A stretch of DNA of 64,000 bases from Hysterangium stoloniferum (Eukaryota > Basidiomycota > Agaricomycetes > Hysterangiales > Hysterangiaceae): contig WHVD01000053.1 of NCBI GenBank assembly GCA_015178975.1, positions 1 to 64,000 on the forward strand. Reading direction: 5' to 3'. This document shows, in pieces, positions 505 to 39,329 of this stretch (its first letter is position 1; each line of letters begins with the position of its first letter). Under the pieces are notes generated by a model. The model had not been told where the DNA came from. It made no database searches and saw nothing but the letters and a program-made list of their open reading frames with translations. The position numbers and the translations under genes were made by a program.

Positions 505-1065
505 TGTTACGACCCGTTCCCGGATGTTTCAATATCCGACTTCCGATCTCCCACTTTCGATATCCGATATCCGACTACGGAACATCATAGTTACCGTATC
601 ATCGCGTTCTTTGTTTGTTCCGCATTTGGTAATTTGTCGTTGACAAGTATTCACTCGTTTGTTGTTGTATTCCCGTCTCGGAATATTGTCTTCCTAATAT
701 GTCTTATTGTATTTCCGTTTTAAGAATACTTCCGTTTCCGTCTTATTATGGTCTCAGTTTGTAGTACAATAACGAGTAGACTTATATTAGTTTCCGCGAA
801 TTTGTACTTTACTTTAGATCTGATATCGACTTAGTTTCTTATTCCTCCTCCCGTCTTTCTGTACGCTCGATATTCGGAACTCTTCGGAACTCTGAATATC
901 CATATCTTCCGTCGTTAGTTCACTTCCGAAATTAAGGACATTGAGCGTTTGCGTAGAGGCGCAGCACATAAGCTGAAGCCGACGTCCTGACCCTATCCAC
1001 GAGTTTCCGACTTCCCGGTGACTTCCCGATAGTTCCGGAATAAGTTCCCGACACGGCACTTAACA
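505..1065 (+). repeat. 5' LTR of element A
   Basis: 561 bases, TG...CA ends, about 99% identical to 7414-7976. It contains a TATA-like TATATTA at 783-789 and the inferred transcript start at 816. The base after the LTR is followed by a GT spacer and the primer site. Confidence 0.95.
783..826 (+). promoter_or_regulatory. LTR promoter: TATA box and inferred RNA start
   Basis: TATATTA begins at 783. Thirty-three bases downstream, at 816-826, AGATCTGATAT is the exact reverse complement of the site just after the LTR (1068-1078). In Tf1-type elements the first 11 bases of the RNA pair with such a site, so the start of R is inferred to be 816. Confidence 0.7.
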
Positions 1066-1067
1066 GT

Positions 1068-1078
1068 ATATCAGATCT
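1068..1078 (+). other. Self-primer binding site of element A
   Basis: ATATCAGATCT lies two bases (GT) after the 5' LTR and is complementary over 11 of 11 bases to 816-826 inside the LTR. No TGG start typical of a tRNA 3' end is present, which favours self-priming over tRNA priming. Confidence 0.75.
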
Positions 1079-1099
1079 CAACTCTGCGACTCGCTCATC

Positions 1100-2326
1100 A
1101 TGGGTCCCAAACGCAAAGCTGCCGAAGGACCATCCCAACTTCAATCCCCGTTGCAACTTTACACCACCCAACCCGAAACCCCAATTCAGCCGACAACATC
1201 AGCTTCAATCGAAGAAGTTACCGAGGAGGTTACCGAGGTAACGAAGGATCCCAATGATCCCCATACTTCCGACAACGAAGCAGAAGATCAGCCGGAGACA
1301 TCGAAAAAGAAATCTCCCGACGAACCGACTGAAATGTTGTTTATCAACTCCATTGTGAAATTCGCTGACTATTTGAAATCCGCTGAGGATAGCAAAGAAT
1401 CATCCCGCACCGGAGTCAAAGAACCCGAACCATTTACCGGCAAGGATCCGAAAAAATTGAAGAATTTCCTTCTTCAATGCCGTTTCAGTTTCCGTGATCG
1501 ACCCAATGCTTTTAAATCCGACAGTCGAAAAGTCAATTTTGCGCTCTCATATCTCAAGGATACCGCTCAGGATTGGTTCGAACCCGGACTATCCGGAATA
1601 TCCGACGAGACACCCGTATGGCTCGACGACTGGGATGCTTTCGTGGAAGAACTGGAAACTAATTTCGGACCTTACGATCAATCCGGCGAAGCAGAAAACG
1701 AACTAATGACGCTCAAGATGAAGGACAATCAACGAGTTTCCGATTATCTCGTCAAGTTCAATACCCTCGCCGCACGATGTGGATGGGACGATTCCGCCCT
1801 CAGGCACCATTTCTATATGGGACTTCCGTCACGCCTTAAAGACGAAATCTGCAAAGATGGGAAGCCAAAAACTCTCCAACTCATGCGGATGAAAGCTCAA
1901 ACATCCGATGCCCGTTATTGGGAACGAAAAGCCGAGGTCTCTCGAGAGAACCCGACGGAACGTTCTCAGAACAACAAGGCATCAACTAGCAAGTCTTCCG
2001 GCAACAACTCAGGCAATAATACCGGCTCTGGCACTAATACTGGCAAATCAAATTCCGACCGGAAGAAAGACAAGAAATCCAACAAGGAAAAACAGTCAAC
2101 TTCCGACAAACCCGACATTTCCCATTTGTTGGGTACCGACGGTAAACTCACCCCGAAGGAGAAACAACGACGTATGGACAACGACCTCTGCCTTTTCTGC
2201 GGGAAAGGCGGACACAAGGTTTCCGACTGTACCGTTAAATCCAGCTCTTCCAAGGCTCGCGCGGCAACTTCCACTACGACTACGACGTCTAAGGAAAAAC
2301 CCGCCACGGAGTCAAAAAAAGAGTAA
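1100..2326 (+). CDS. Gag-like protein of element A
   Basis: An open frame of 408 codons starts 34 bases after the LTR end. An acidic, low-complexity N-terminus is followed by the retrotransposon Gag region (about residues 120-270, with LKNFLLQCRFSFRDR and W..W..F..EL motifs). A Ser/Asn/Thr-rich linker follows, then a zinc knuckle CLFCGKGGHKVSDC near residues 364-377 in the form C-x2-C-x4-H-x4-C. Gag forms the intracellular particle and the knuckle binds the element RNA. It stands upstream of protease in the usual order; separate gag and pol frames are common in this clade. Confidence 0.9.
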   Translation: MGPKRKAAEGPSQLQSPLQLYTTQPETPIQPTTSASIEEVTEEVTEVTKDPNDPHTSDNEAEDQPETSKKKSPDEPTEMLFINSIVKFADYLKSAEDSKESSRTGVKEPEPFTGKDPKKLKNFLLQCRFSFRDRPNAFKSDSRKVNFALSYLKDTAQDWFEPGLSGISDETPVWLDDWDAFVEELETNFGPYDQSGEAENELMTLKMKDNQRVSDYLVKFNTLAARCGWDDSALRHHFYMGLPSRLKDEICKDGKPKTLQLMRMKAQTSDARYWERKAEVSRENPTERSQNNKASTSKSSGNNSGNNTGSGTNTGKSNSDRKKDKKSNKEKQSTSDKPDISHLLGTDGKLTPKEKQRRMDNDLCLFCGKGGHKVSDCTVKSSSSKARAATSTTTTTSKEKPATESKKE

Positions 2327-2467
2327 GCAACCCTCCGGAATCTGCACGGACAGAGGGTTGCGTTGACTCTCCTCCCGTGTTTCCGAGGTTGTCCGTCTCA
2401 ATGCGTCCGCTCTCTCTAATCCCAATTCATTATTGTAAAACTCGTCTCTGACTTTCTTGGAAATTTA

Positions 2468-5400
2468 GTGTTCCGAGCTCTAATAGATTCCGGCTCCACA
2501 CACTGTTTTGTAGATACCACCTTTGCCACGAAACATAATCTGAAACTCCATTCTGTTCCCGCAATTTCCTTGCATTTGTTTGACGGCACTAGCAATACGG
2601 CAATTACTCAAGCCTGCGACATGTCTATCCAGTTCCCTTGTGGAACATCCCAGATGGTTACATTTTTCGTAACACAGTTGGACTCTAGCTGTTCGGCAGT
2701 TCTTGGATACAACTGGCTCACCCGATATAATCCGTTGATTGACTGGGTATTGGGCAGTATTACTTTCCGGACTCCCGACACTTCCGTTCCTCCTGCAGCG
2801 TCTTTTCCAGCCCACGCCTTTTCGGCATCAATGGCATCTCCGGCTTCTATCGAAACTTCTGAGCCCCCCAAAAATCTCTCTCATCAACGCTTCGGCATTT
2901 GTTAGGGCGAGTAAACTGGATGGCTCGCAATGTTTTTCGATCAGCTTAAAAGTTGATGAAGCATCTGGACGTTTTGCAACTCCAGAATTATCCGAGCTAA
3001 AAGCCGATCTGGAAGGAGTTCCCGAAAAATACCATGATTTCGCGGACATTTTCAGTAAGCAAAAAGCTGACAGGCTTGCACCACATAGGCCCTACGACTT
3101 AAAAATCGATATTGAGCCCGGTTCAAACCCTCCATTAGGACCTATTTACCCATTATCCCAATCGGAACTTTCGTCTATTCGGGAGTTCCTGGATGAACAT
3201 CTGTCGATAGGTTTTATCCGTCCCTCAAAGTCTCCGTATGGAGCACCCGTCCTTTTTGTCCGAAAGAAGGACGGCTCTCTTCGACTCTGTGTCGATTTCA
3301 GAGGGTTAAATTCCATCACACAGAAAGATAAGTATCCACTCCCACTCGTTACCGACTTACTCGACGCCCCACGGAAAGCTCAAATTTACACCAAAATAGA
3401 CCTCAAACACGCCTATCATTTGGTCCAAATTGCCGAGGGTGACGAATGGAAAACTGCTTTTCGGACTCGCTATGGATCCTTTGAATGGTTGGTTATGCCG
3501 TTCGGCCTTACCAACGCCCCTTCTGCTTTTCAACGTTTTGTTAATGATATATTTTCCGACATGCTTGACGTATGTGTTATAGTCTATTTGGACGACATTT
3601 TGGTATTTTCCGAGGATCCCGCTTTTCACGATGAACAAGTCCGTGAAGTCTTCCGAAGACTCCGTAAAAACGGTCTTTTCGCCAACGGTAAAAAATGTTA
3701 TTTCGACATGGATTCTATTGAATACTTAGGTTTCATCATCGGCCCTGATGGTCTCCGTATGGATGAAACCAAGGTTCAAGTTGTCCGTGACTGGCCCGAA
3801 CCACGGAAGGTCAAGGACATTCAATCATTTTTAGGTTTTGCCAACTTTTACCGTCGTTTTATTCGGAACTACTCGGATATTACAGTACCGCTCACTCGTC
3901 TTACCGGTAAAACTCAACCATGGGTTTTTGACGACAAATGCCGCTCCGCCTTCCAGACTTTAAAAAATGCTTTCACTTCTGCCCTGATTCTTTCCCATTG
4001 GAAACCTGATTTTCCGATTATTGTGGAAACCGATGCTTCCGATTATGCAATTGCCGCGATTCTTTCCATTCAAGAGTCCGACGGTGAAATTCATCCGGTC
4101 GCATTTCTTTCTCGGACACTTTCAGTATCCGAACTCAATTACGACGTTCATGATAAGGAACTTTTGGCAATTTTTGAAGCTTTCAAACATTGGCGCCATT
4201 ATCTCGAAGGTTCCGCAACTCCCGTTGACGTCATTACCGATCACAAAAATCTCGAATATTTTTCTACCACTAAACTTTTAACCCGCCGGCAGGCCCGTTG
4301 GTCTGAATTTCTTTCCGCTTTCAACATGATTATCCGTTTCCGACCCGGACGTCTTGGTGGAAAACCAGATGCCATGACTCAACGATGGGACGTCTATCCT
4401 AAAGAGGGGGAAAGTAACTATGCTGTTGTTAATCCACATAACCTGAAACCGGTTTTTACAACGCAACAACTTTCCGCATCTATCCGAGCAACTTCCTTTA
4501 CTATCCAACTATGCATAGCGTCATGATTATGGACATTGAGCAATTACATCAAGATATCCTTTCCGCACTCACTTCCGACCCGGCCCTCAAGCCACATTTA
4601 GAAGTTCCCGACAATCCCGACCAACCCCGATGGTCACAAGACTCTCAAGGTTTTATCCGTCTCGATGGACGTATCTACATTCCAGATTCCAACAATCTCC
4701 GACTCCGCGTACTTCAGTATAAACATGATCATCCAATCTCCGGACATTACGGCATCAACAATACTCTTGTTTTAATCCGTAGAGAATACACTTGGCCCAA
4801 CCTCAGAGATTTCGTAACTCAGTTCTGTAAGTCATGCACCACCTGCTTACGCTCTAAAACCCAGAGGCATAAGCCGTACGTCCTTCTCAAGCAACTCCCG
4901 ATACCAGAAAAACCCTGGAATTCAATTTCCATGGATTTCATCGAACAACTCCCGACTTCCGAAGGCTTTACATCCATTCTAGTCGTTGTGGACCGATTCT
5001 CGAAACAAGGCATTTTCATACCCACTCATGATACAATCACGTCCTTACAATTAGCGGAACTTTTCATTATTCACGTATTTTCCAAACACGGAGTTCCATC
5101 TCACGTAACTTCCGATTGAGGCTCCAAGTTCATCTCCCATTTCTTCCAGGCCCTCGGAAAAGCCCTCGACATGAAACTACACTTCACCTCGGGATATCAC
5201 CTGGAAGGTGATGGACAAATGGAACGTGTTAATCAAACATTGGAACAATATCTCCGCATCTATTGTAATTATCAACAGGACAACTGGAAATCCCTTCTTC
5301 CGATCGCGGAATTCGCCTACAATAACTCTCTGAATGCAACCACCGGCATATCTCCCTTCTTCGCCAATAAAGGCTATAATCCGAATCTCACAGTACATTC

Positions 5401-6010
5401 CGAACGAGATTTGGCTTCTGTCCGTGCTCAAGAATTTATTACCGACCTCGACGAATTACATCAAGAACTTCGGAAAGCTATTTCTTCCGCACAGGAACAT
5501 TATCAACGTTCCGCGGACAAAAATAGGATCCCGCCTCCTAATTTTAAAGTTGGTGATCAGGTTTTTGTAAAAGCTCAATTCTTCCGTACTACCCGACCTT
5601 CTAAAAAACTCGCTGAGAAATTCTTAGGACCTTTCGAAATTATAGCACAAGCCGGCTCACTTTCATGGACTCTCCGTCTTCCCGACAGTATGCGAGCAGT
5701 CCACCCCGTTTTCCACGTTTCCATGTTAGAACCTTGTGTTCCTAACTCATTCCCGGAACGTATTCAGCCTCCGTCCCCTCCGGTCATCATTGATGAACCC
5801 GAATTCGAAGTCTCCGAAATTTTGGATTCTAAAATCGACAATCGCCGACGTACTTGTAAATTGCTCTATTTAGTCAAATGGGCAGGTTATGAAGGTACCG
5901 ACGAGGAAACTTCATGGATATTGGCCACGGAACTTGGACATGCTATGGAAATTGTTACTGACTTCCACACGGCTTATCCAGGCAAACCCGGACCTTTATC
6001 ATCACTCTAA
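2468..6010 (+). pseudogene. pol region of element A (PR-RT-RH-IN-chromodomain)
   Basis: Domains occur in Ty3/gypsy order. An aspartic protease with [11 protein letters not shown] lies near 2480. Reverse transcriptase spans about 3090-3900, with YLDD encoded at 3584-3595. RNase H (VETDASDYA, then DKELLAIFEAFKHWRHY) spans about 4015-4300. The integrase zinc-binding and catalytic regions run about 4700-5500. A chromodomain (CKLLYLVKWAGYEG and a Trp further on) ends the protein near 6010. The chromodomain is known to steer integration to heterochromatin marks in related elements. The region holds about three breaks and is treated as a fossil. Confidence 0.92.
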
Positions 6011-6095
6011 TCTTTCTGTTCCTTTTCTGATCAACTTCCGACACTTCCGTTTTCACACTCGTTTTAGGTTTTGCAAGTCAAAAATATTATTAAAT

Positions 6096-7229
6096 CTATC
6101 TCAAAGTCTCTGACACCCCAAATCCGCCTTCCACTTCATCTCCTGCAACCTCCGCACTTTCCACCATATCCTGTACCTCCTCATCTTCACTCTCCTCTTT
6201 TCCCGACCCCCATCTCCGCTCCACACACTCCGCCAATGGATCATTCAGCTGGTTTTTCGCCTTATCGGCAAATCGTTCAGATACCGCGATTACACCGATA
6301 CTAACCATCATCTTCTCCAGGAAATCGTTTTGCCTCCAGAAATTCCGGACCAACGAACGGAAACCCTTCTCCTGGATCTCATTATGGCGATCCAGTGTTT
6401 CCCGCATTTCCCGCATCTCAACCCCGATGAAGACCATTGTATCGACCAATTCCTTAAGGAGCTCAACGCCCATACCATCCGTACTCGGCACCTTAGTTTC
6501 CGCAGTTTTGGTCGCTCCTGAACCTTCCGCGATGGTAGGTTTTTGAGCCTTTTCGCTTTTCGGAACCCTTTTTGCAGCAAGAGTGCACGGAAGTTTGAGG
6601 ACCGCGCAAGGATAACAAGTTCCACCCCATTTTACCTTCTGTTTCCAACAAGTTATATCCCGTACGGAACATCGAACACATGGAGTGTCATGGGCAATTT
6701 CCATCTGTTCCGGAGCCTTGACCTTTTGTTTCTGTTTCGGAAGATTAGTCAATTACCGACCTTTTGTAGATGCACTTACTTTAGGACTCGAAGGCCCAGC
6801 TTCTCCCTCTACTTCCACCTCCACGGCTTTTCGCTGTACGCAACAGTTATCAGTTGTAACCACGGAAATCTATGGAATCGGACTCACCTTTCCTTCCCTT
6901 ACCTCCTTACGTTTTTCCGCCGCCTCAGCTTCTTGTTGTTTCTTCACTTCTTCTTCCTTCAACCTCCGATCCTCCATCACTTTCCGCAACCTTGCCAACT
7001 CTTTTTCTTTTTCTGCCTTCGCCCGCTCCAATTCCCGTTTTTCCGCCTCTTCCGCATCCCTCAACTCTTTTATCAATGCTTTTTCCTCCTCCTCCTGTCG
7101 TCGCTTCAACTCCTCCATTTTCTGGCGTTTTTGTTGAAGTTCTGCGACCTTCGACATTCTTTGCAGGATGGATATTTCAGTATCTGAGTCTTCCGGGGTA
7201 GTGATGAATAACGGCCGACGAATCGACAT
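6096..7229 (-). CDS. Antisense accessory gene of element A: coiled coil plus Zn2Cys6 cluster
   Basis: On the strand opposite to pol, three exons are read: 7229-6888, 6833-6780 and 6731-6096. Introns of 54 and 48 bases have GTGAGT and GTAAGT donors, CAG acceptors and a CTAAT branch-like motif; both are phase 0. Exon 1 is a Glu/Lys/Arg-rich coiled coil. Exon 2 gives 18 mostly acidic residues. Exon 3 carries six cysteines spaced C-x2-C-x6-C-x10-C-x2-C-x6-C, which is the fungal GAL4-type Zn2Cys6 spacing, followed by a helical region and an acidic tail. A TATAAAAA box lies at about 7279-7285 on this strand, 50 bases before the ATG. The gene ends tail-to-tail 86 bases from the pol stop. DNA binding or regulation is inferred from the cysteine spacing only. 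No match to known Gag, Env or Pol proteins is recognised. Confidence 0.7.
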
Positions 7230-7278
7230 ACAAGTCGTGGATAAAGAAACAAAAACGTTAATTCGAATATTTGGAGGT

Positions 7279-7285
7279 TTTTATA
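7279..7285 (-). promoter_or_regulatory. TATA box for the antisense accessory gene
   Basis: On the minus strand the sequence reads GAGTATAAAAACC, about 50 bases upstream of the ATG at 7229. It lies inside the element between the antisense gene and the 3' LTR. An equivalent TATA box lies in element D at about 50521-50531. Confidence 0.5.
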
Positions 7286-7402
7286 CTCAGAATAATAACC
7301 GAAACTCTCACCTCCATAATTGCGTAAATTTCACGACACATAACAGTCAGCCGTCGCTTCAAACACTCAGTACCTAATCGCCTCTATGGGATTTCGGCCT
7401 AA

Positions 7403-7413
7403 CAGGGGGGTAC
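7403..7413 (+). other. Polypurine tract of element A
   Basis: The purine-rich AGGGGGG run ending just before the 3' LTR at 7414 sits where the plus-strand primer is formed in LTR elements. Confidence 0.7.
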
Positions 7414-7976
7414 TGTTACGACCTGTTCCCGGATGTTTCAATATCCGACTTCCGATCTCCCACTTTCGATATCCGATATCCGACTACGGAACATCATAGT
7501 TACCGTATCATCCGCGTTCTTCGTTTGTTCCGCATTTGGTAATTTGTCCGTTGACAAGTATTCACTCGTTTGTTGTTGTATTCCCATCTCGGAATATTGT
7601 CTTCCTAATATGTCTTATTGTATTTCCGTTTTAAGAATACTTCCGTTTCCGTCTTATTATGGTCTCAGTTTGTAGTACAATAACGAGTAGACTTATATTA
7701 GTTTCCGCGAATTTGTACTTTACTTTAGATCTGATATCGACTTAGTTTCTTATTCCTCCTCCCGTCTTTCTGTACGCTCGATATTTGGAACTCTTCGGAA
7801 CTCTGAATATCCATATCTTCCGTCGTTAGTTCACTTCCAAAATTAAGGACATTGAGCGTTTGCGTAGAGGTGCAGCACATAAGCTGAAGCCGACGTCCTG
7901 ACCCTATCCACGAGTTTCCGACTTCCCGGTGACTTCCCGATAGTTCCGGAATAAGTTCCCGACACGGCACTTAACA
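7414..7976 (+). repeat. 3' LTR of element A
   Basis: 563 bases, near-identical to 505-1065. The six substitutions between the two copies are all C/T or G/A changes within CpG. Confidence 0.95.
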
Positions 7977-7990
7977 CCCACATACCCACA

Positions 7991-11996: not shown

Positions 11997-14133
11997 CCAA
12001 GATTTATAATCACCATTGTACTTGTAAACTGCTTTATTTAGTCAAATGGGTGGTCTATGAAGGTACCAATGAGGAAACAACCTGGATATTGGCTTTGGAA
12101 CTTGGACACACTACAGAAATTGTACTTGACTTCCACAACACCTACCCTAGCAAACCCAGACCTTTATCATCACTCTAGCTTCCATCTTTCTGACATTCCA
12201 TTTCCCATCTTTCTAACATTTCCAATATTTCTGACCATACCCTCCCTTTTCCTGATCTGTTTACTCCTCACTCTCTTCCACCTCTCTGCCCCAACTCTGA
12301 CCCCCCATTGCAATCTTGTACCCTCATCACTCCATATGCTTTCCACCATTTCCTCCCCACTAAATTTGCAAGCATGGGACTTCCATCTTAGGGACTACCC
12401 TGACTGTACATTTGCCAAATCTTTACTTCACATAATAAAACATGGTGCTCTTATTGGTTTCAATGGTGATGATCATGAGCAATGTTGCAAAAACTTAGCA
12501 TCAGCCTTTGAGCATCTGCAGGAAGTCTCCTCCTTTATTAATAAGCTTTTATTAAATTCACATGCCATGGGCCCATTCCCCACTCATCCCCTGCCCCACT
12601 TCTGCTGCTCTCCTCTAGGAATCACTATGTGTAAATGCAGCTCCAAACTCCAGCTCATCAACCACCTTTCATGGCCTACATCATCATTGGTCAACCATGG
12701 GATTCCCGATTCCAAAGCCTCTATCACTTACAAATCCTTTGAAGTGGCACTTCAGGGTTATTTGCCAATTTGGTCCTGGGACCCTTTTAGCTAAACTCGA
12801 CTTAAAGAAGCATTCCATCATATTCCAGTTGCTCAATCACAATGACATCTCCTCAGTTTCCACTAGGAAAATAATTTCTATCATGCAATAGTTCTTATTT
12901 TTGGCCTGCATTCTGCCCCTTATATATTCAACCTGTTTGCTGAAGCTTTATACTAGATCATTGTGTGCCACATTCCAGCTGCTCTTCACCACTACAATCT
13001 TGACGATTTCCTGCCCATCTTTCATCCTGGCACATCACTACCAATCGCTAATGCTGCCATCAATTGTGCCAAGCTCTTGGCCACCAACTCAGCCTCTCAT
13101 TTTAACATGAAAAGATTATCTGGCCATGTACAAAGATAGAGTATATTGGGTTGGAAATTGATACTATTGCCATGGAAGCACACTTGCCAGCTAAACAACT
13201 GACCTATCTCCATGAGATTCCCAGTGCTGCCATTATTGCCCCCACCTTTACATTGAAGCAAATTCAGGAACTCATTGGGTTCCTCCAGTTCTCCATGCAG
13301 GTTATCCCTCATGCTCGAGCATTCAGATGCCTTATTGACTTCTCTATGTCATTCATTTCTCCATTCTCATGCTGCCACATACCAGCTTACACTCAGGCTG
13401 ATATTTGGTGGTGGCACACCTTCTCTCATGCCTGGAATGGCATTGCCATCATCCAGCCATCCCTTCCCATACTGCATGTGTATACTGATGCCAGTAGTTG
13501 TAAAGGCATTGGTGGTATATTTGGCAACCAATGGTATTCTGCATGCATACCTCATTACTTTCATGAGCATGATATCCAATTCAAAGAGATACACGCAGTT
13601 CTCCAGGCCATTACGTGCTGGGGTTCTCTTTGGTCCAGCCACCATATTGTGTTCCATGTTGATAATTCTGCCATTGTCACTGTGCTGACACAGAGGACCA
13701 CCTGAGCATGCTTTGCAATGTCCATTGTCCACAATATTGCCATGCTAGCATCATTTCTGAGATTCTCCTTCTCTTCCTCTTGGCTTTCTTCTGAGATGAA
13801 TGCCCTTGCTGACTTTGCCTCTTGCTTTAAATATGCACACTTATTTACTCTTGACCCTTCTTTGTATAAACAGAACTGCTCGAACAACCCCCAGCTTATT
13901 GGTATCAGATGAATGCTCATCTCTCCCTGCCAGTCACCTTTTTCCTTTGGTATGGCCTCACCAGCAGCACTAGATGAACATATACCATGGGGCAACATTC
14001 ATTCATTGACTTCATCACCTTCTGCCCTCATCTCCTCAACCAGGATTGATCCTTCTTCCCATCCAACAAGAATGCCATTGTTGAATGGGTTTCCCATCTC
14101 AGGCTCACCAGGCAACTCAAAGCATCTACGATC

Positions 14134-14301
14134 AAGTCATACCTCAGTCACCTCAAGTCATACCTCAGTCACCTCAAGTCATACCTCAGTCACCTCAAGT
14201 CATACCTCAGTCACCTCAAGTCATACCTCAGTCACCTCAAGTCATACCTCAGTCACCTCAAGTCATACCTCAGTTACCTCAAGTCATACCTCAGTCACCT
14301 C
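14134..14301 (+). repeat. 21-base minisatellite inside the recombinase region, 8 copies
   Basis: The unit AAGTCATACCTCAGTCACCT plus C is repeated eight times with almost no variation. Because 21 is a multiple of three, every forward frame stays open through it. In the recombinase frame it repeats the heptapeptide SYLSHLK, a motif expected once in the N-terminal core-binding domain. Confidence 0.9.
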
Positions 14302-15233
14302 AAGTCTCTCCACATCGATGCTGATCTTTCCCTCACAGCTGTCAAGGCTCCCCTCATCCAGCATGTCATCAGGGGCATCAAGCATTATTTTGGTGAGTGT
14401 GCCCATCATCCCATTGCACCTATAACCCTTCCTATTTTCCAATGCCTCATTAGGTTCTCCTTCCCACACTCATCAATCCATGCCGCAATGATTGACCCAG
14501 CCATTAAACTGGCTTTTGCAGGTTTCTTACACTATGGAGAATTCACTGTGAAGGGGAGTAAATTTCAGACCTTCAATCCTTCTGCTTGCTCACTTGACCA
14601 GAAGCACCATTTCTTTCTTGCCTAATTGTTACGACTGTGTCACAACCCAAGGTTATTGCCACCTATCAACATTTCAAGTTATCATTCAAGTCATCACATC
14701 AGAAACTGTCGGTCTCCTGAGGCTGATGTATGCTTTCACGGTGATCAAACTCCATTTATTCCCCTGTCAAATTATACTCGTACTATCTGGTTATACTCTA
14801 ATATGTCCCCTTTTTATTATGAGGATCTGTTCTACTCTATGTTTCACATATGTCTATATATACTTGTAACCCTTGGACTATTTCCTTTTCTTGTAATCCC
14901 GCTCTCAGTTATTTCACAGCCTCCGAACTAATTGTAACCTTCCCATTCCTAGTCAAGCTTATTTGTCAATAATGTTTTCTGCTCTTCTCCTAGTTAGTAT
15001 TTTCTAGATGCCGAATACTTGTATATGAATACTTGTATATGAACCTGTTGTAGTTGTAGTTACTAGGCAATCAGAATATCAACTCAGAATACCCTCATAC
15101 ATCTCTAGAAGTCTCATACTAAGTATTCCGCCCTCCACCTTTGCATGTGCTCGCCCACTCTCAGTCCCTGACCCCTTGGCCCGACACTCGACTTATCCTT
15201 CGGTCCTGATCAGTAACTTGCTGAGAGGTACTC

Positions 15234-15557
15234 TGTTAAAACTGCCTCCACTGTCTCCAAAACCTTCTGGAACCTTCTAGAAGCTTCCAGCATGTTCCAG
15301 GGTATTCCCAGTTCATTTCCCATGACAGCTGTCAATCAGCTGTCACTTTGTATTCCAGCTGTCAATCAGCTGTCAGTTTCCATTCAAGCTGTCAATCAGC
15401 TGTCAACCAGCTGTCAACCAGCTGTCACTTATGACAGCTGACAAGCCTACTGATGTATAACATATATAAGCTTGTAGTTAGTGACCTGAATAGCAACAAC
15501 TTTCCTCAGACTTGTGTGTGTCACGTGTCACAGTAAGGTCACAGGTCACTTTTAACA
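15234..15557 (+). repeat. 5' LTR of the copia element
   Basis: 324 bases with ends TGTTAAAA and TTTTAACA. It contains a cluster of AGCTGTCA repeats upstream of a TATA box in ACATATATAAGC. It differs from the 3' LTR mostly in repeat number. Confidence 0.93.
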
Positions 15558-15580
15558 GGTTATGGGCCCTGCGCTCTAAG
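15558..15580 (+). other. Copia primer site matching the anticodon arm of initiator tRNA-Met
   Basis: GGTTATGGGCCCTGCGCTCT starts on the first base after the LTR. It is close to the complement of the anticodon stem-loop of eukaryotic initiator tRNA-Met, whose loop CUCAUAA gives TTATGAG. Half-tRNA priming of this kind is known for Drosophila copia. Homology to the tRNA is from memory, not from a search. Confidence 0.7.
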
Positions 15581-15804
15581 CGCTCTAGTACAGTATAACG
15601 TTTTGCAAACTCGCTTCTTTTGAGTAAGTTTCAGCCTATACTTTTATATTCCCCTGCCAGGCCCAGCCTTATTGCTGTTGCTAGTAGGGAGGAACTTGTA
15701 CGCCACTAAGGCTGAGTTTCCCTCGAGACTACCGTCTGGACCTCGAGTTAAATACCTTTTTTCCCAACTTCTTTGCGAGTTTGCTCTCTCTATACTTGTA
15801 TACA

Positions 15805-18800
15805 ATGTCATCTTCCATCCCCCAATTCCCTAAACTCAACTCTCATAACTACAACACCTGGTCTGGTGAGATGCAGGCTTGGCTTCGTGCCCAGGGTGTC
15901 TGGCGCATTGTTGAGGCCACCTCCATTGCACCTGCACTATCCTCATCTCCTACAGAGGCCCAGCAAACTGCATTTGATGCTTGGGCTCTCAAATCAGACA
16001 AAGCAGCAGGTTGGATGTACTTGAGTGTTGAGGATGATCAAAAGATTCATCTTAAAGGGATTGAGGGTGATCCGGTCAAGATGTGGACCAGTCTGTGTGA
16101 TGTACACTTGCAGAAGCGCCCTGGCATGCGTTTCAATGCATATGATGATCTCTTCTCCATCAGAAAGGAAGAGAATGAGAATTTGCAAACTCTGATGAAT
16201 CGGGTGGATATAGCCATCCGTGCCATCCAGGATCTGCGCCCATTGAATTTTGATCTTGCCAAACTTGATGAGGAGCTTGCATCAATGGCAATGATCAGGG
16301 CACTTCCTGAGCAGGTTGACAACTTTGCCTCTTCTCTTCTTATGATGGACAAGCTGGACAAGGCTACTATCCAACAAGCCTTTGTCACAGAAGAGTCACA
16401 ACGCCGTCATCGTGCTTCACAAGCTCCTACAGTTGCATCTGCACTGGCTGTAAAGGACAATGCATCCACTGCATTTCTCAAATGTACTTTCTGTTGCATG
16501 ACCAACCATACTATGGAAAAGTGTCATAGATTCATTAAGATGCAGCAGGAAGCACAGGAGAGTGTCCGTACCAATCGTACTAAAGGAAAGAAGGCAAACA
16601 GGACTCAGGAGATAATGTCTCAGGACAATGTTGAATCTGCTGGAAATGCACGTGCTTTCTCCTCATCCAATTCCCCCACCCTGCAGAATGATTCTGACTT
16701 TGATTGGCTCGCAGACACAGGGGCCAGTAGTCATATGACTCCCCATTGTCACTGGCTGCGTAACTACACAGCATTATGCATACCAATCAAGTTAGCAGAT
16801 CATAGTATTATTTACTCTGCAGGAGTTGGAACACTGGTTTTTAATCCAGTTGTAAATGGAAAGGAATTGCGATCTGTTGAGTTTACAAGAGTCTTGCATG
16901 TACCACAATTGCGTAGTAATCTACTATCTTGTCTTTACCTTACAAAGTGTAAAGGTCTACATTGAGATTGACCAAACAACCATATGTTTCAAACGCTCTG
17001 GACAGACTCTGTTCACAGCCAGAGTTACTGCACAGAATGCAGGCATCCTAAATGGTGTTACTGCACCTATTATTGAGCAAGCTGGTGCTGCCTCCACTCT
17101 TCCCTTTGATATCAATCTCTGGCATCACCGTCTTGGACATCACAGCTATGCTGATGTCCAGAAGATGATCAGAGAAGGATTGGTGGTTGGCTTAAACCTT
17201 GACTCAAAGGAACAACCTGATCCTATCTGTGAACCTTGCCTTGCTGGCAAAATGACTGCCAATCCATTTCCTACCTCACCAAGTCAATCTCAGACACCAC
17301 TTGAGCTTATTCATAGTGATCTACATGGACCACTCCCTGTGCAAACAACTGAGGGTTATCACTACTGGATAACCTTTATTGATGATTGCACCAAGTTGTG
17401 AGCTGTTCTGTTCTTAAAACGGAAGAGTGATGCATTTGAAGCATTCAGGAGATACAAAGCTTATGCTGAGAATCTTCTGGGTTGCAAGGTGAAAGCTCTG
17501 CAGGATGACAAAGGGGGTGAATACATGTCAAATGCTTTCATCAAGTTTACAGATGAATGTGGAATAGCACGCCGTCATACTACTCGCAATCGCCCTCAAC
17601 AGAATGGAGTTGCAGAACGAGCCAATCGTACCTTGGCTGATCATGTCACTGCCATGATGCATGAAGCGCGTATGCCTGCCTCATTCTGGAATCATGCTGT
17701 GGCATCTTATGTCTATGTATGGAATCGTCTGCCTACTGCACCATTGCCTAAAACTACACCCTATGAGCAATGGTACAAGCAGAAACCAGATGTGAGCAAC
17801 TTGCGAGTGTGGGGGTGTACTGCCTATGTTTACATTCAAAAGGACAAAAGGAAGTCACTTCAGTCACACATGGAGAAATGCCTCTTTCTAGGCTATCCTG
17901 TGGGATACAAAGGTTGGCAATTCTACAACCCTGTTACAAAGAAGTTTATCATCTCTGAACGGGCTGTATTTGATGAACGCCACTTTCCTGGTCTATCTAC
18001 TACTGGACCAATGCCTAATATTAGGCTTTTCCCAAATATACCAAACTCTGACATTCCCTTATTTGTGCCAGAAGTAGAGGGGGATAATGATATTTCTGTC
18101 CCTCCTACTCATATTCCTGCACCTCCTGCTTATATTCCTGCACCTCCTGCTCAGATTCCTGCACTTCCTGAACCCATTCAACTACCTCCTCCACCTGCAC
18201 CAGAACCACAGCTTCGTCGCTCTCAGCGTGTTCCAAAGCAACCTGGTGAATGGTGGAAGGTACAACCAGCTCCAGCTCTAGCTGAAGATGATGATGAGGA
18301 CATTGATTATGAGGAAGTACAGTTTGTTGGAACAGCTTCAACTGCTGATCCACAAAACTACAAGCAGGCTATGAAAGGTGATGATGCAGATAAATGGCAA
18401 GAGGCTATAAATGCAGAGTACAATACACTGGTAGAAAACAAGACATGGGAACTTGTTGACCTTCCAGTTGGTGCAAAGGCAATTGGTTCGGGTTGGGTGT
18501 TTAAAGTCAAACACAATGCAGATGGCACAATTGAGCGTTATAAAGCTCGTCTTGTTGCCAAAGGATACTCACAACGTCCTGGCATTGACTACAATGAAGT
18601 GTTTGCACCTACTTTTAGACCTGCAACTCTGCGTTTGATTCTGGCCCTAGCTGCCATTGAAGACATGGACTTGCGCTCTGTTGACATTTCTGCTGCTTTC
18701 ACCCATGGTGACCTTGATGAGACAATTTATATGAGACAACCTGAAGGCTTCCATCAAGGAGGTCCTAATAAGGTTCTCAGACTCTTGAAATCACTTTATG

Positions 18801-19906
18801 GTCTCAAGCAGGGATCTCGTCAATGGAACATCAAGTTACATGGTGCACTTACTGAAATGGAGTTCAAACGAATTGAATCTGATACCTCTGTTTACATTTA
18901 TTCAAATGGAGAGGTCAAGATCTTTGTACCCATTTACATTGATGATATTACATTTGCATCCAAGTCCACTCTTGCCATTGACAAAGCTGTCAAGCAATTG
19001 TCCCTGCATTTCAAATGCCGTGATCTTGGACCCACTGTTTATTTACTTGGTGTGGGAGTTGGCAGAGATCGCTCTAAGCGTCTCCTTACTCTTGATCAGC
19101 GACAATTTATTCTCAACATGCTTGAGCGTTATAACATGTCTGACTGTCATCCAGTTCTCACACCTATGACACCTGGTACATCTCTTTCCAAAGAAATGGG
19201 TCCTGAGAATGCTGCAGAGGTGGATTTCATGCGTAGTGTTCCTTATCTCAGTGCTGTTGGGTCTTTACAATACCTGGCTACTATGACCCGTCCAGATATT
19301 GCTTATACTGTGTCCTACTTGGCACGTTTTAATTGCAATCCTGGACCAAAGCATTGGACAGCAGTGAAGCACTTGTTCAGATACCTAAAAGGTACACTGG
19401 ATTGCAAGTTGCATTACTCTGGTAAATGTGGCTCTGAATTATTCACCACATACACTGATGCTGCTCATGGTGATTGCATTGATTCTGGAAGATCCACTGG
19501 TGGTTATGTAACTATGATGGCTGGAGGTGCTATTGGCTGGAGTAGTAAACTGCAAAGTATTGTCACACTTTCTACAACTGAAGCAGAATTTGTCTCTGCT
19601 GTAGAAGCTGGCAAGGAGATTGCCTGGATGCGGCAAATCCTAGGTGAATTTGGCTACCAAGTTGATCAACCCTCCACTCTACACATTGACAATCAGTCTG
19701 CCATCAGTGTTGCTAAGAACCCTGAGCATCATGGAAGGATGAAACATCTTGACCTGCGCTACTATTGGCTTAGGGATGCTGTAAATGCCAAGTGTATTAC
19801 TCCTTCCTATATTCCTACTGCAGAACAAATTGCAGATATTCTAACCAAGCCTCTATCTACTCCCAAGGTTCAATTTTGCCGTGATGGAATGGGTATAAGG
19901 ACTTAG
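15805..19906 (+). pseudogene. gag-pol region of the copia element
   Basis: The frame opens with a copia Gag domain (YNTWSGEMQAWLRAQ). The zinc knuckle is CTFCCMTNHTMEKC (C-x2-C-x4-H-x4-C). The protease has DTGASSHM near 16715. A GAG-pre-integrase motif (LWHHRLGHHSY) lies near 17120 and the integrase core follows to about 17800. A Pro-rich linker leads to reverse transcriptase (WVFKVKHNADGTIERYKARL near 18500, YIDD near 18940). RNase H ends the protein (YTDAAHGDCIDSGRSTGGY; STTEAEFVSAVEA). About two breaks are present; most of pol is one 805-codon frame. Confidence 0.93.
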
Positions 19907-19942
19907 TTTCTTGTTTTCTTTCTTACTCTCTGTAGTTTAGCA

Positions 19943-19978
<36 letters not shown>

Positions 19979-20013
19979 CTTTTTCTTTGGAGACATGTGA
20001 GATCAGGGGGGTC

Positions 20014-20355
20014 TGTTAAAACTGCCTCCACTGTCTCCAAAACCTTCTGGAACCTTCTAGAACCTTCTAGAAGCTTCCAGCATGTTCCAGGGTATTCCCA
20101 GTTCATTTCCCATGACAGCTGTCAATCAGCTGTCACTTTGTATTCCAGCTGTCAATCAGCTGTCAGTTTCCATTCAAGCTGTCAATCAGCTGTCACTTAT
20201 GACAGCTGTCAACCAGCTGTCAACCAGCTGTCACTTATGACAGGCCTACTGATGTATAACATATATAAGCTTGTAGTTAGTGACCTGAATAGCAACAACT
20301 TTCCTCAGACTTGTGTGTGTCACATGTCACAGTAAGTCACAGGTCACTTTTAACA
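20014..20355 (+). repeat. 3' LTR of the copia element
   Basis: 342 bases; 18 longer than the 5' copy because of an extra CCTTCTAGAA unit and different numbers of AGCTGTCA repeats. Confidence 0.93.
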
Positions 20356-20572
20356 TACTCATCAGGACTAGTCTTCGTCCATCTGAAATTTAAGGACACC
20401 CGACGGATATTTGCAAGGGCACAGCACAAAAGCTGAAGCCAAGTCCTTCTGATTGGTCCCCATCGGCCTACCGACATTAGTCAGTTTTCAGTTCTTAACA
20501 CTAATTTCGAGAACCCCTCCCACATTACTATCACTTTCTCTGCCTCCAAAACTGACCCCTTTCGGAAGGGCA

Positions 20573-21100
20573 TGTCACAGCTGTCACAGTCACAACATTG
20601 TCACAAAATATTCAAGGTAACTTTCAACAACTCTTTGACTCATCTTTGACACATTAATTCATCTTTGACAAAAACTCCAACTTGACATTCTATTCAACAT
20701 CTTCAACACCCTCAAATTTATTCGATGAACATTCAACTTACATTTGACTTGTCTCATTTCAATGTCATATGTGATTTCATTCATAGGTCATAGTTTAATC
20801 ATAGTTTAATGAAGAAAGGCATAAAAGGGCAATGAGAAGATTGAAGGACCTCAGTCAGAAAATCTCTCCATTGTATATTAGTTATCTGTATTATTAATCT
20901 ACCTCTCAATCTTGTCTTACGTGATCATCGAAACTCTTTGACATTAACATCTGTGAGCCTTCACGACTGGTATTAGCCTCTCATTTCACTGACAGGGGGA
21001 ATCTAGACTTCATCAAATGAGGCTTCTGTATTCGGTTTTGTAGAATATATGTATTTATGATTATTATTCAACTTAATCGAAAGAAATTTGATTCATGTCA
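20573..21100 (+). mobile_element. Solo LTR, family Y, inside the recombinase region
   Basis: 528 bases beginning TGTCACAGCTG and ending ATTCATGTCA. Its flanks are GGGCA (20568-20572) and GGGTA (21101-21105), a five-base duplication with one difference. A TATA box (CATAAAAGG, about 20820) is followed about 30 bases later by AGTCAGAAAATCTC, the same start-like motif as in the LTR of element D. Its relative at 9832-10293 lies in the opposite orientation. Confidence 0.8.
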
Positions 21101-21530
21101 GGGTATTACCACTTATGTTGCCAATGTGGCTACCACCACTTGCACTGTGCATGCCCTCAGATACCTCTTTATTGTAGACCCATGTCCTCCTAATTCACCC
21201 CTATTTTGCAATGATGATGGATCCCCCCTCCAGTATTCTCTCTTCATGTCTTCTCTCTGATCCCTCCTCTACACCACTGGTTTTGATCCTACCTCCTTCA
21301 TGGGTCACTCCTTTTGGAGGGGTGCAGCTTCTTCCACTGCTGAAGCAGGGTTTACTGACTATGAAATTCAATTGATGGGGTGCTGGTGCAGTGACATCTA
21401 CAAACTTTACATTGAGTCCTCCTGCACACACATTCTTAACCTCTCTGCTAGGCTTCATTGGGCTGTTCCCACCACTCAATCTCCAGGTCCACTGGACCTT
21501 CATCTCACTTAACCTTTTGGGTTGAGCACA

Positions 21531-21950
21531 GCCTGATTTATTTCTGGTGGCACAAAAGAGTGGTGGTGATGCAATAGACTCTATTTGCTTGCCCAAACTA
21601 ATGAACAAATACCAGATATAATTTGGACAAAAATAATTTGTCCACATTCTCTGAAGGAGGCATGTGATATAGACAACAATGCTCAATCACTCTTTATGCC
21701 ATTCATTGTTCTCTTGTTCCCTTTTTTCTTTGTTCTCTCTCATTGTTCTTTATCTATACATATATCCTGCATTCCTAGTTCCACAATCCCCATCTTGTCC
21801 CATCTCAATTCCACACTCAATACCCTTTCTCACATCTCATCTCATCTCAATTCTGCACTCAATAGTCTTCAAAGACTTCGAGTTCTGCTTATATTTTCAC
21901 ACCCACCCTTCCTCTTACCCTATCGGACTAAATAATACAGTACTTGGAAT
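21531..21950. other. No gene recognised; probable right flank of the DIRS-like element
   Basis: Pyrimidine-rich sequence with short direct repeats (TCTCATCTCAATTC) and no supported frame. It may include the 3' end of the DIRS-like element, whose border I cannot fix. Confidence 0.4.
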
Positions 21951-22000
21951 TAGTGTCAACCAAATCCTTGGTCAAAAGGAGGTTCTCTCTGTCCTGAGGA

Positions 22001-22159
22001 TCAATGCGGGCGAGCATATCTTTGATTTTTTTCGTTTCTAGATGACAAGCATTCATCCGCCCTCTCTCGGTTCTTTGAAGGAGATATAGAGTTGACGATA
22101 CGCCGGCCACCATGGATAAGCATCTGAGCAATAGGTTCTACGAGGGGGGTGGGGTCCAT
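22001..22159 (-). pseudogene. Possible 5' remnant of a host gene
   Basis: A 52-codon frame begins MDPTPLVEPIAQM at 22159, about 60 bases downstream of a TATATAA box (about 22218-22226). Another frame continues with KKIKDMLARIDPQDRENLLL to about 21930, where retroelement DNA takes over. The change of frame falls in an A-run, so either an intron or a one-base change could explain it. This looks like a host promoter and start cut off by the retroelement cluster. No function is recognised. Confidence 0.3.
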
Positions 22160-22510
22160 AGTTAGCAGAAAAACGGAGTATGGAGATGAAATGGAAATCG
22201 TTGAAGGATTGTGGTGTTATATAAAAAGATGGGGATAAAGTAGCGAAAAGAGGGCGCTAGATATTGTAATTATGGAGATCAAATTAGGGTACGGGAACCT
22301 GAACGTATTATACTAATTGTCTTTGAGCTTCAATTGTCTGGCTCGCTTCGAATGAGAAGCCTTGGAGAATTGCCTCAGGCGGTTAGTTGGCGTGTTCATA
22401 TTTCAAATATGTCAAGATGGTAACTAAAGGCTTCTATATAACCAAGGAAATGAATAACATCATAAGCTATCGCCATTGTTGTTAGGAATATCGTGGGAAT
22501 GCTTACGGCC

Positions 22511-22857
22511 GTTTGCACTACGCAAGGCGCGCGCTAGGATACCAGGAAATGTTGCGTGGAAATTGTGAACCTTCAAATGTTGACCAATCACCCTGTATAA
22601 AGGTGGTTTGTATGTATTTACCTGGCAGGTTTATGGCAGGTATTTGGACTGAAATAGTTGGGAGAGGTCATTCTTTACTACCCAATAACATATTATGAGC
22701 TCATTCAGTTTGCATGGACTCCAATTTTAGGAAATATGCTATAGGTGGATTTTGGAGTTGTGATAATTCACTAGATAGAATTAAAATATATCAAAGTTAC
22801 AAGGTGATCACTCAACATTTGAAGCAGCCATTCTAGCGCGCCTTACGTAATACAAAC
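22511..22857. mobile_element. MITE-like element with about 26-base terminal inverted repeats
   Basis: The left end reads GTTTGCACTACGCAAGGCGC. The right end, reverse complemented, reads GTTTGTATTACGTAAGGCGC; both then continue into GCTAG. The differences are C/T changes. The interior of about 300 bases has no coding frame of note. No target duplication is obvious. It lies in the space upstream of the kinase-like gene. Confidence 0.55.
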
Positions 22858-23010
22858 TGTAAATTAACTTTTTGACACACGGCCATTATGTAAACCCAAC
22901 CAGTCCGAACATAATGGAAGCCAGTATTTCCCACGATTTCACCTTGTTAAAGATTTACACTGCTATCTACGTCCGCTGTGTAACGACCGACCCCCCAACC
23001 CCGTCTAACT

Positions 23011-24596
23011 ATGATAACTTTCGACGAATTTGCAACCGAAGTTGATCTCTATCGCACTACCTGGGATCCTGGAGATCATACCAAACTGATGCCCTTGGAG
23101 ACGTTGTGGGCTAAACACCAGATATGGTTGGAGTCTTGCGGGTACAAACTCCGTTCGAGATACCAACACGATTGGGTTCCTTCGTGGAAGGGCACTAAGA
23201 AGGATCCGGAAGATTGTGAAGATTCGGCTTTCCTCGTATGTACACATCCTTTTCTGCGTATCGCACTCAATGCACTGTAATTCATTGGTCATTGCTGTAT
23301 TGCATCTTATAACACCGTCAGACCTATCGCCAAATTATAGATGCTACACGCATACGTGATGGTATCCCTGTCGCACTTAAAGTCATCTGGACCCACAAGC
23401 GTTCCGATGAGATGCGAATTGGCCAATTATTCTCTAGTCCAGGATTGGCAACGGATCCGAGAAACCACTGTGTTCCGATTTATGAAGTCATCGACAGCCC
23501 GAATATCGAAGGCATGCGACTTCTTGTCATGCGACTTCTCCGGCCGTGGCTAAATCCTTCCTTTGTTACTGTTGGAGAGGCATTAGAGTTCTTCAGGCAA
23601 ATATTTGAAGTGACTATAGCTCATTCAAACTCATTGTTGTCCATGAAATCCGATGTTGTATTACTTCCAGGGGCTGGGTTACATGCATGAGCTTAACATT
23701 GCACATCGGTAAACAGGGAATTTTCACCATATGATCATGATCATCAATAGCCTCTAGGGATCTTCACCGAGGTAACATAATGATGGATGCCAGGGAGATG
23801 TATCCAAAAGGGTACCATCCCGTACGTATATCCAAATCTAAAGATCTCCGCCGCTATGCTACTCATTATACTCGCACCGAACGGCCGCCCAAGTATTATC
23901 TGTTGGATTTTGGCTTGTCTCGGCATTATCCTGAAATAAGGCTTGACGCTCCCGTCCGCGGAGGTGATAAGTCTGTTCCAGAATTCCAAGGGGAAGGACA
24001 CAAAACATCATACGATCCGTTCCCGGTTGATGTGTACTATCTTGGGAACATCATTTTTGAAAAATTTCTCTCAGTCAGTTCCTTTCTGAACGACAAGTTC
24101 TCATTTTACAAAGCTGAAAAAACGTCAGACGTATTCGAATTTAGAGTTCGTACGGCTGTTGGTGTCAGAGATGATACAACACGACCCAAAAAAGCGTCCT
24201 ACCATTTTCCAAGTGATATCTCGTATGGACAAAATTATATCCACACTTAATGAATTCCAATTACGGCGTCGCTTGATCAGGAGAACAGAGCATATGCCCT
24301 TTCGTCTGATGCGTGACGTTATACATGTCATGCGACAGGTCCGATTCGTCGTTGGGCGTGTGCCGCCCATGCCTCCGAAACGCGTCCCGGCCCCACATAG
24401 TGAAGATGCCCATGCATCAATACATGCATTTAATGCCACGACTCGCCCCCACATACGTGTGACCAATGGACTGATGATACTTGGTGAGCGGCCCCGCCGA
24501 CAGCCACGCCTACCCCACGATCAAATACACATATCCGATGAAGAGTCCCCTGATGAAGAGGTCCCCGGTGAGGAGGTCCCCAGTGAAGAGGACTGA
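23011..24596 (+). CDS. Kinase-like protein, five exons
   Basis: Exons 23011-23235, 23322-23609, 23671-23708, 23758-24073 and 24129-24596 splice with GT-AG introns of 86, 61, 49 and 55 bases and give 444 residues in one frame. Protein-kinase signatures are the Lys of VALKVIW (about residue 95), the catalytic loop HRDLHRGN (183-190), LLDFGLSRHY with DFG (234-236), and HDPKKRP of the C-lobe. No glycine-rich GxGxxG loop is seen before the Lys, and the N-lobe is short. This resembles the expanded kinase-like families of mushroom genomes. The C-terminus is acidic with EEVP repeats. Substrate and activity are unknown; catalytic residues are present, so activity is possible. The gene looks intact. 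Confidence 0.85.
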
Positions 24597-31074: not shown

Positions 31075-31597
31075 CAGAGGCAGAGAGCGGGATATTTAGA
31101 GCAAGACTATGAGAGTTGTTTAGGAGTGTTCTGAGTCAATATTCTGATTGCCTTGTAGCTACATTACAGTTGGACTTAAATACTTATTATTGGCATCTCA
31201 AAATACTAACTAAGGTAAGAACGGGAACATCCAATTAGTGACAAATAAACTTAACTAGAAACTGGAAGGTTATGATAAGACTGGAAGCCATGATTATTTG
31301 AGACCAGAGTTACAAGAAAAGGGAATAGTCCAAGAGCTACAAGTATACACAGGCATATATGAAACATAGAGTAGAATGGATCATCATAATAAAAGGGGAT
31401 GTATCAAAGCATAACCAGATGGTATGAGTATAACTTGACAGGGGCGTAAACAGGGTTTGATCACTGTGAAGGTATATGTCAGTGTCAGTTTACTGACAGT
31501 TACCAATACGATGACTGCCAATAACTTGAAATGCAGACAGATGATAGTATCATTGGGGACCATCGGGTTGCAACAGGGTTGCGACACAGTCATAACA
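31075..31597 (-). mobile_element. LTR family X, minus orientation, abutting the previous copy
   Basis: On the minus strand it starts TGTTATGACTGTGTCGCAAC at 31597 and resembles the first part of 14627-15100. With 30505-31074 it forms an inverted pair of LTRs meeting near 31074. Confidence 0.7.
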
Positions 31598-32135
31598 CCA
31601 ACAAAGAAACTTCCTGGATATTGGCTTCAGAACATGGACATGCTATGGAAATTGTACTCAACTTCCACAATAACTACCCTAGTAAACCTGGACCTTTATC
31701 ATCACTCTAGTTTTCAATATTTCTGATATTTCTGACATCTGTCTGTCTTTTTCTTTTTCACAAACCTTATAAGTTCACACTGACAAATTTTGCAAGTCAA
31801 AAAAATTATTGAAAATCATGCTATATTTTCCTTTTAAGGTTCTCCAAATTTTAGCTCCTCCATCATGTCAACCCCCACTTGAGTTCCATGACTATGCCAT
31901 TTTCTGACCCAGAACCTTCTCCTCCTAGCTCCTCCCATATTTCTCAGTTACCACTATGACACCAATGCTGACCATAACCTTCTGCAAGATTTTGTTCTGT
32001 CTCTGGAAGTTTTGATTCATTGCCTAAAAACCCTTAACCTGCATCTGGTTATTCAGTTCTATGACTTCCCACATTTTCAACAGTTCTATGGCAATTTGAA
32101 TCATGGCATTTACATTGTCCCACAGAACATCCTAT
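31598..32135 (+). pseudogene. Ty3/gypsy fragment: chromodomain end and downstream tail
   Basis: 31600-31710 encodes the end of a gypsy chromodomain (SWILASEHGHAMEIV-like, ending in the SSL stop seen in elements A and D). The rest resembles 6001-6450 of element A, including the end of the antisense-gene region. Decayed and CpG-poor. Confidence 0.75.
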
Positions 32136-39325: not shown

Positions 39326-39329
39326 GTTG

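Follow-up and report, generated by a model that had tools for sequence, protein, structure and literature searches.

An intron-containing antisense gene with a Zn2Cys6-like cysteine cluster, kept under selection beside the 3' LTR of a fungal chromovirus

Whether LTR retrotransposons encode transcription regulators of their own is a question accessible to DNA-binding and RNA work, and it is raised here by a locus in Hysterangium stoloniferum. In a stretch of 64,000 nucleotides (contig WHVD01000053.1, positions 1 to 64,000; hereafter the window), a sequence-only reading had proposed that a gypsy retrotransposon, element A, carries a regulator-like gene transcribed against pol from beside the 3' LTR. 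Element A is complete, with forward-strand LTRs of the TG..CA type at 505-1065 (5') and 7414-7976 (3') and a 5-bp target-site duplication, CCCAC, at 500-504 and 7977-7981. The LTR stretches 503-1065 and 7412-7976 agree at 557 of 565 aligned positions. On the same strand lie gag (1100-2326; Retrotrans_gag 53.9 bits and Ty3_capsid 33.1 bits, both above cut-off, with a CCHC motif seen by eye while zf-CCHC stayed below cut-off), the protease (2468-2905; RVP_2 33.9 bits, above cut-off), reverse transcriptase and RNase H (2739-4526; RVT_1, RT_RNaseH), the N part of the integrase (4511-5119; Integrase_H2C2 above cut-off, rve at 18.1 bits below its own) and the integrase C part with a chromodomain, with which pol ends (5171-6010; SH3_Tf2-1 and Chromo above cut-off). 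A TGA at 5117-5119 ends the integrase frame in the window copy; elsewhere, open frames of more than 1200 codons run across the same part. The order PR-RT-RH-INT followed by a C-terminal chromodomain identifies element A as a chromovirus of the Ty3/gypsy group. A pol query gave 7887 matches from 8000 scored candidates. Among the best 120 of these, the named records at 63-73% identity came from Trametes, Leucocoprinus, Pleurotus, Moniliophthora, Pisolithus, Armillaria, and Coprinellus, which we take by genus to be agaricomycetes, and frog, alga, and Ustilago records reached 46-49%. The same query against viral contigs returned 8 pattern matches and no relatives. The CpG observed/expected ratio was 1.1-1.6 within element A (505-7976) versus 0.47 at 13000-26000 of the window, which suggests a young insertion amid CpG-depleted surroundings, with methylation-linked decay.

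Opposite pol, between its end at 6010 and the 3' LTR, the reverse strand holds an antisense gene of three exons and 343 codons. Exon 1 (6888-7229, 342 nt) encodes a charged, helical, coiled-coil-like segment ending in the codons GK. It is followed by intron 1 (6834-6887, 54 nt, GTGAGT..CAG), exon 2 (6780-6833, 54 nt), intron 2 (6732-6779, 48 nt, GTAAGT..CAG), and exon 3 (6096-6731, 636 nt with stop), which encodes a cysteine cluster, a long helix, and an acidic tail. Both introns are in phase 0. Exon 2 encodes RKAVEVEVEGEAGPSSPK, the middle of an NLS-like block that is completed, as judged by eye, by intron removal (GK/RKA...SPK/KQK, slashes marking the junctions). From N- to C-terminus, the order is thus charged helical exon 1, NLS-like block, six-cysteine cluster, long helix, and acidic tail. 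The cluster, CVRCSVRDITCWKQKVKWGGTCYPCAVLKLPC, lies at 6585-6680 within exon 3 and comprises Cys 150, 153, 160, 171, 174, and 181 of the protein, with the spacing C-x2-C-x6-C-x10-C-x2-C-x6-C. A TATA box, TATAAAA, is found on the antisense strand at 7285-7279, outside the LTR and 56 nt before the ATG. Exon borders, canonical splice sites, intron lengths and phases, TATA box, and cysteine spacing were all reproduced as first read. As for the coiled coil claimed for exon 1, the segment is rich in E, K, and R and the call is fair by eye, but a single charged helix would look alike.

The conservation of this gene was analyzed in 40 copies from the same genome, window copy included, which were scored out of 361 first-look candidates. 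Each aligned along all 1134 bases, with 83-100% identity, and none had lost the ATG, the TATAAAA, or the GT/AG ends of either intron; 25/40 were intact from ATG to stop. Exon lengths were in frame in every copy except L023, L027, L038, and L050. Cysteines 1 to 5 were kept in 40/40 copies and cysteine 6 in 38/40. Pooled over the 40 copies (only columns with a base in the window copy were counted, codons interrupted by gaps or stops were left out, and pairs are not independent), dN/dS was 0.273 for the antisense gene, versus 1.11 in each of the two shifted frames. By exon it was 0.242, 0.329, and 0.280 for exons 1, 2, and 3, and differences at codon positions 1, 2, and 3 were 0.073, 0.059, and 0.141. 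The idea that the antisense frame is a product of chance, or is imposed by coding on the sense strand, has one point in its favor, namely a low ratio of 0.34 in one sense frame, which we attribute to its third positions lying opposite antisense third positions. The remaining sense frames gave 0.93 and 1.42, none of the three has fewer than three stops in any of the 40 copies, and pol ends at 6010, before the gene begins. Set against the antisense dN/dS of 0.273, these stops and ratios rule out this explanation, to which we give next to no credence.

The introns show a pattern of their own. The interior of intron 2 was the most variable of the parts measured, with a mean pairwise difference of 0.225 (versus 0.079 in intron 1, 0.065 in exon 1, and 0.110 in exon 3), and its ends were nevertheless invariant across the 40 copies. 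If intron 1 were retained, the frame would stop after 118-122 residues in 31/40 copies and earlier in the other nine. In the 38 copies with both parts (two were omitted for an integrase match that was too short), dN/dS was 0.276 for the antisense gene versus 0.185 for the integrase C part. The gene is thus kept intact in most copies (25/40) and conserved about as pol is, as is asked of an aORF-3R. Homologous frames, sought in other copies as a check on the sequence-only reading, were found, leaving that reading unrefuted, and Ka/Ks between copies was 0.27, not near 1. Together these results support the view that the element keeps, beside its 3' LTR, an antisense gene that is under selection and has both intron signals and a TATA box, in agreement with that reading.

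The association of the gene with pol extends beyond the aligned set. A query with the exon 3 protein gave 844 first-look candidates, and all 150 that were scored matched, down to 68% identity. Counting these 150 matches and 139/140 integrase matches, 93 of the 150 had an integrase match within 3 kb, and all 93 were convergent with it at a median gap of 97 bp, while 57/150 exon 3 matches had no integrase match within 3 kb and 46/139 integrase matches had no A-type exon 3, all among the matches listed. This convergence at close range is what would be expected if the antisense RNA acts instead of the protein, with double-stranded RNA feeding silencing or interfering with the sense RNA, a role that has been offered for plant elements in the available text of PMC7264820. 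Against it stands the dN/dS of 0.27, compared with 1.1 in the frame controls, which shows selection on the protein; an RNA role alone would keep neither the frame nor the splice sites nor the cysteines. We therefore consider an RNA acting in place of the protein quite unlikely, although the two roles are compatible and both can hold.

More diverged and damaged copies were also inspected. Ten further copies (nine of the lowest-scoring matches, at 68-71% identity, and one at 77%) had GT/AG at both introns, except for one GC donor. The ATG was present in 9/10 and only 1/10 was stop-free; as judged by eye, there were many changes of Arg to Trp or Gln and many stops, as CpG decay would give. At seven places, an integrase match was found with no A-type exon 3 listed. 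Three of these carry deletions inside the gene (L070, L072, and L075), and the remaining four comprise one A-type gene with a frame break, one D-type gene, and two cut by other sequence. Among the 40 or 41 matches listed for a 101-base probe across each deletion junction, the locus of origin was the one full-length match. This is what copies without descendants would show, but deletions that arose late would look alike.

Similar genes occur in two further families, B and D. Family B is represented in the window by element B, with LTRs at about 44230-45035 and 50681-51495 and an exon 3 frame with the same cluster, antisense beyond pol, at 49509-50018 (minus strand), between the pol end at about 49308 and the LTR from 50681. 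A second B-like antisense exon 3 belongs to a minus-strand element and lies on the plus strand at 39220-39729, lacking the first two cysteines. The window also contains a fragment of an A-like antisense exon 3 at 31934-32131 (minus strand; tblastn 42% over 66 aa, E 1.4e-12), beyond a pol remnant at 31543-31707. A query with the family B exon 3 gave 1276 first-look candidates, and all of the 150 scored matched. Family D was found through integrase matches 84-85% identical to A and was read in L066 and L067 and then in a third copy, L076. Gene models for both families, taken as the longest products over candidate splice sites and thus with predicted borders, have phase-0 introns of 49 and 49 bases in B (L068) and 50 and 47 bases in D (L066), with exon 1 ending in GK and exon 2 beginning with RKA and ending with SP(K/Q)K. 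In one copy each, the TATA box lies 56 (A), 60 (B), and 57 nt (D) upstream of the ATG. The cluster loop is x10 in A and D and x9 in B. The three families are about 25% identical in exon 3 and have in common the exon borders, NLS-like block, cluster, and place of the TATA box; shuffle z-scores among them ranged from 9.6 to 11.9 for whole spliced proteins and from 3.7 to 6.2 from about the cluster on. For family B, exon 3 of the window copy compared with L068 gave pS 0.48 and pN 0.12, and B/C comparisons with the decayed copy at 39220 gave a higher pN/pS of 0.48-0.57. About 40 nt inside the LTR edge (window about 7380-7425; L066, L068) are conserved in A, B, and D, and the rest of the leader is not. 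In B and D (L068, L066), inspection by eye showed TGTGTCAAA..TCATGTG-like motifs upstream of the TATA box, with two occurrences in B.

These families bear on the possibility that a host gene, or a piece of one, was captured and rides along unused. Host Zn2Cys6 genes do exist (42 PF00172 matches from 83 scored candidates in this genome), and gene capture by LTR elements is described in the available text of PMC7264820. Selection on the exons and recurrence in three families, at the same place in each and at only about 25% identity in exon 3, speak against an unused passenger and all but rule it out; we regard it as very improbable and rejected it.

Is the cluster then a Zn2Cys6 domain? The sequence-only reading had called its spacing that of fungal Zn2Cys6 domains, and as far as spacing goes, this holds, since the clusters of A, B, and D fall within what we take to be the Zn2Cys6 range, C-x2-C-x6-C-x5-12-C-x2-C-x6-8-C, the B-like copy at 39220 being without its first two cysteines. 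Searching with the PF00172 profile did not bear it out. The cut-off of 21 bits was unreached in all three families, with no match for A at E<=5 or E<=10, scores of 9.7 and 10.1 bits for B, and 9.4 bits in one copy of D and no match in the other, and membership in PF00172 by cut-off was therefore rejected. Compared with the fungal Zn2Cys6 proteins of the GAL4/PPR1 type, the cluster thus has the same spacing and a weak profile match below the Pfam cut-off. With hhalign, a cluster profile aligned to five host Zn2Cys6 segments at P 4e-5 and a probability of 70, versus P 0.13 for a reversed control (the comparison drew on five of six host segments, and four of eight host loci yielded none). Among 177,635 PDB sequences, the best for the cluster was the Zn2Cys6 protein PPR1, at E 2.1. 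With the whole protein as query, a PDB match to a phage head protein was obtained (E 2.5e-4), but it fell mostly on the charged helix; we took it as compositional and rejected this candidate relative.

In the Zn2Cys6 fold, a short helix follows each CxxC around two zinc ions. A zinc-free structure model of exon 3, of low confidence (mean pLDDT 63, pTM 0.26), placed helices at 19-23 and 40-44 in a block of pLDDT 62-77 and, again with low confidence, a long helix at exon 3 residues 84-160. Its alignment comprised 33 of 43 A-type loci, the window, and six B, C, and D sequences, 6 of the 49 A-type loci retrieved having been excluded because their exon 3 carried stops or a broken frame. Across nine aligned clusters, the invariant residues were mainly in the second half, C-x2-C-x3-K-x2-C, and the SVRDIT between Cys2 and Cys3 of family A is without the basic run found in most host segments. 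Taken together, the profile comparison and the low-confidence model are what make kinship, and thereby a Zn2Cys6 identity, plausible. Homologues outside this genome were sought for the window protein (374 word-sharing candidates, none at E<=1) and for the D-type exon 3 (79 word-sharing candidates, none). The same database does contain pol relatives from agaricomycetes. Either the antisense protein evolves fast, then, or gene callers have missed it, and absence elsewhere is not implied.

Exon 3 differs between copies in a manner distinct from the rest of the element. In seven copies, L041-L047, identity to the window was 97-98% for both the integrase C part and the second LTR half, 96-98% for the promoter, and about 94% for exon 1, versus 80-84% for exon 3; for the first LTR half it was 89-91% in six of them and 98% in L046. 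Between ten close copies and these seven, the silent difference was 0.056 in the integrase, 0.116 in exon 1, and 0.301 in exon 3. The raised silent difference in exon 3 points to the exchange of old alleles, not to faster protein change alone. Exon 3 (about 6096-6779) appears to act as an exchangeable block between subfamilies. Within it, the comparison of the ten with the seven gave the lowest dN/dS for the cluster and the tail (0.19 each) and the highest for the linker at 6581-6432 (0.56). Over three group comparisons, the cluster gave 0.19, 0.23, and 0.09 and the linker 0.56, 0.55, and 0.33.

These values bear on whether the protein is selected for a function other than transcription regulation. 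It might be a nucleic-acid chaperone, an integration tether, or a silencing antagonist, with the charged helix as its interaction part. Small cysteine clusters can bind RNA or protein too, PF00172 is not reached, and exon 3 is strongly different between subfamilies, as an arms race would give, with a weakly constrained linker. On the other hand, the cluster is among the best-kept parts of exon 3, all three families have the NLS-like block in common, and the element already has a chromodomain in pol and, by eye, a CCHC motif in gag (zf-CCHC below cut-off). On balance, we hold such a function to be possible but doubtful. Our preferred reading of this additional element-encoded gene is a nuclear DNA-binding regulator, to which the sequence evidence leads us to give roughly an even chance.

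A candidate target for such a regulator is found in the LTR. Zinc clusters bind CGG triplets, and the start of U3 (7414-7490) is occupied by an array of CCG-containing 6-8-mers whose length differs between copies (L051, L055, and L049). In the first 140 nt, placed by alignment (L049 and L051 start inside the array), CCGA occurs 2-11 times, with a mean of 4.7 in 40 copies, versus 4 times in the remaining 423 nt of the window copy's LTR, and the commonest CCG spacing is 7. Relative to mononucleotide shuffles, CGG/CCG was in excess within the first 150 nt of A and B, whereas D showed no excess (p 0.39). Element A is CCG-rich throughout, with 34-50 CGG/CCG per kb, and the repeats may be mere composition. 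Co-inheritance of U3 type and exon 3 type was sought among the copies and not seen: L045, L046, and L047 have exon 3 alike (80-81% to the window) with U3 at 89, 98, and 90%. The full proposal, namely that in a lineage of fungal chromoviruses the spliced antisense gene supplies a sequence-specific transcription factor of Zn2Cys6 type, which reads the CCG array of the element's U3 and has in exon 3 an exchangeable specificity cassette, is one that we advance as speculative and unlikely to hold in all its parts. Under this proposal, the divergent exon 3 of L041-L047, set beside their closely similar integrase C part and exon 1, would mean that copies sort into regulatory compatibility groups, which may be likened to the superinfection-immunity groups of phages.

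If the gene does encode a nuclear regulator, antisense transcription would start from the TATA box, which lies between exon 1 and the polypurine tract, and proceed towards pol. Removal of the two short introns would join the parts of the NLS-like block and set the cysteine cluster behind the charged helix. The protein would enter the nucleus and bind DNA through its Zn2Cys6-like cluster, most likely at the CCG/CGG repeats of its own U3, and would in this way set the output of two promoters, the sense one in the 5' LTR and its own next to the 3' LTR. In this scheme, gene structure, selection, recurrence in three families, TATA box, and orientation are read directly from the sequence, and we infer that the gene is transcribed and spliced, that its product is imported into the nucleus and binds zinc and DNA, what its target is, and in which direction it regulates. 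The introns would persist because the element replicates through its sense RNA, in which they cannot be spliced. Their retention in the 40 and the ten further copies is in line with this explanation, already given in the sequence-only reading, the cause itself being presumed. A retroelement can thus keep introns by coding on the strand opposite its RNA genome.

Parallels to this layout are found in viruses, fungi, and plants. The hbz protein of HTLV-1 is of the leucine-zipper type, and no sequence relation to it is claimed; its antisense promoter is TATA-less and lies in the 3' LTR, whereas the TATA box of element A lies outside the LTR at 7285-7279 and is kept in 40/40 copies. According to the available text of PMC10309998, hbz is spliced, as the gene of element A is predicted to be, and it likewise runs antisense at the 3' end of its retroelement; its product competes with Tax for cellular factors. 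In plants, an antisense gene occupies the same place in Retand, a non-chromovirus lineage, where the TRP28 ORFs encode another domain (PF04195) and the available text (PMC11963269) does not use the word intron. The antisense ORFs of Grande (gene23), RIRE2, and PvRetro13 share place and orientation, with other proteins in another host kingdom, and gene23 has its own upstream promoter and a nuclear product (PMC7264820, available text). The function of the plant ORFs is called unknown in the accessible parts of the papers cited. Like them, the gene of element A lies between pol and the 3' LTR and is coded antisense to gag-pol, which is how an aORF-3R is defined. The sequence-only reading knew of no described fungal element with this plan, but the layout has in fact been described: Boty-like elements of Botrytis cinerea, which have a chromodomain (PMC4227169), carry an additional antisense gene, brtn, between pol and the 3' LTR (Zhao et al. 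2011, as cited in PMC7264820, PMC8365987, PMC4227169, and PMC5987419). The resemblance to brtn, compared by description, thus covers a fungal LTR element with chromodomain and the place of the gene, and the available citing literature mentions neither splicing nor a Zn2Cys6 cluster. The word antisense is absent from the main text of a fungal LTR element survey (PMC3248453) and a Tcn1-like chromovirus survey (PMC2864245), and within the open-access literature no spliced or Zn2Cys6-like antisense gene was found in this place. On the one hand, then, the layout is known from plants, HTLV-1, and Botrytis. On the other hand, the spliced, Zn2Cys6-like make-up appears new among the open-access literature available, and the present case offers many copies, clear selection and exon borders, a TATA box belonging to the gene itself, and candidates for both a DNA-binding cluster and its target array.
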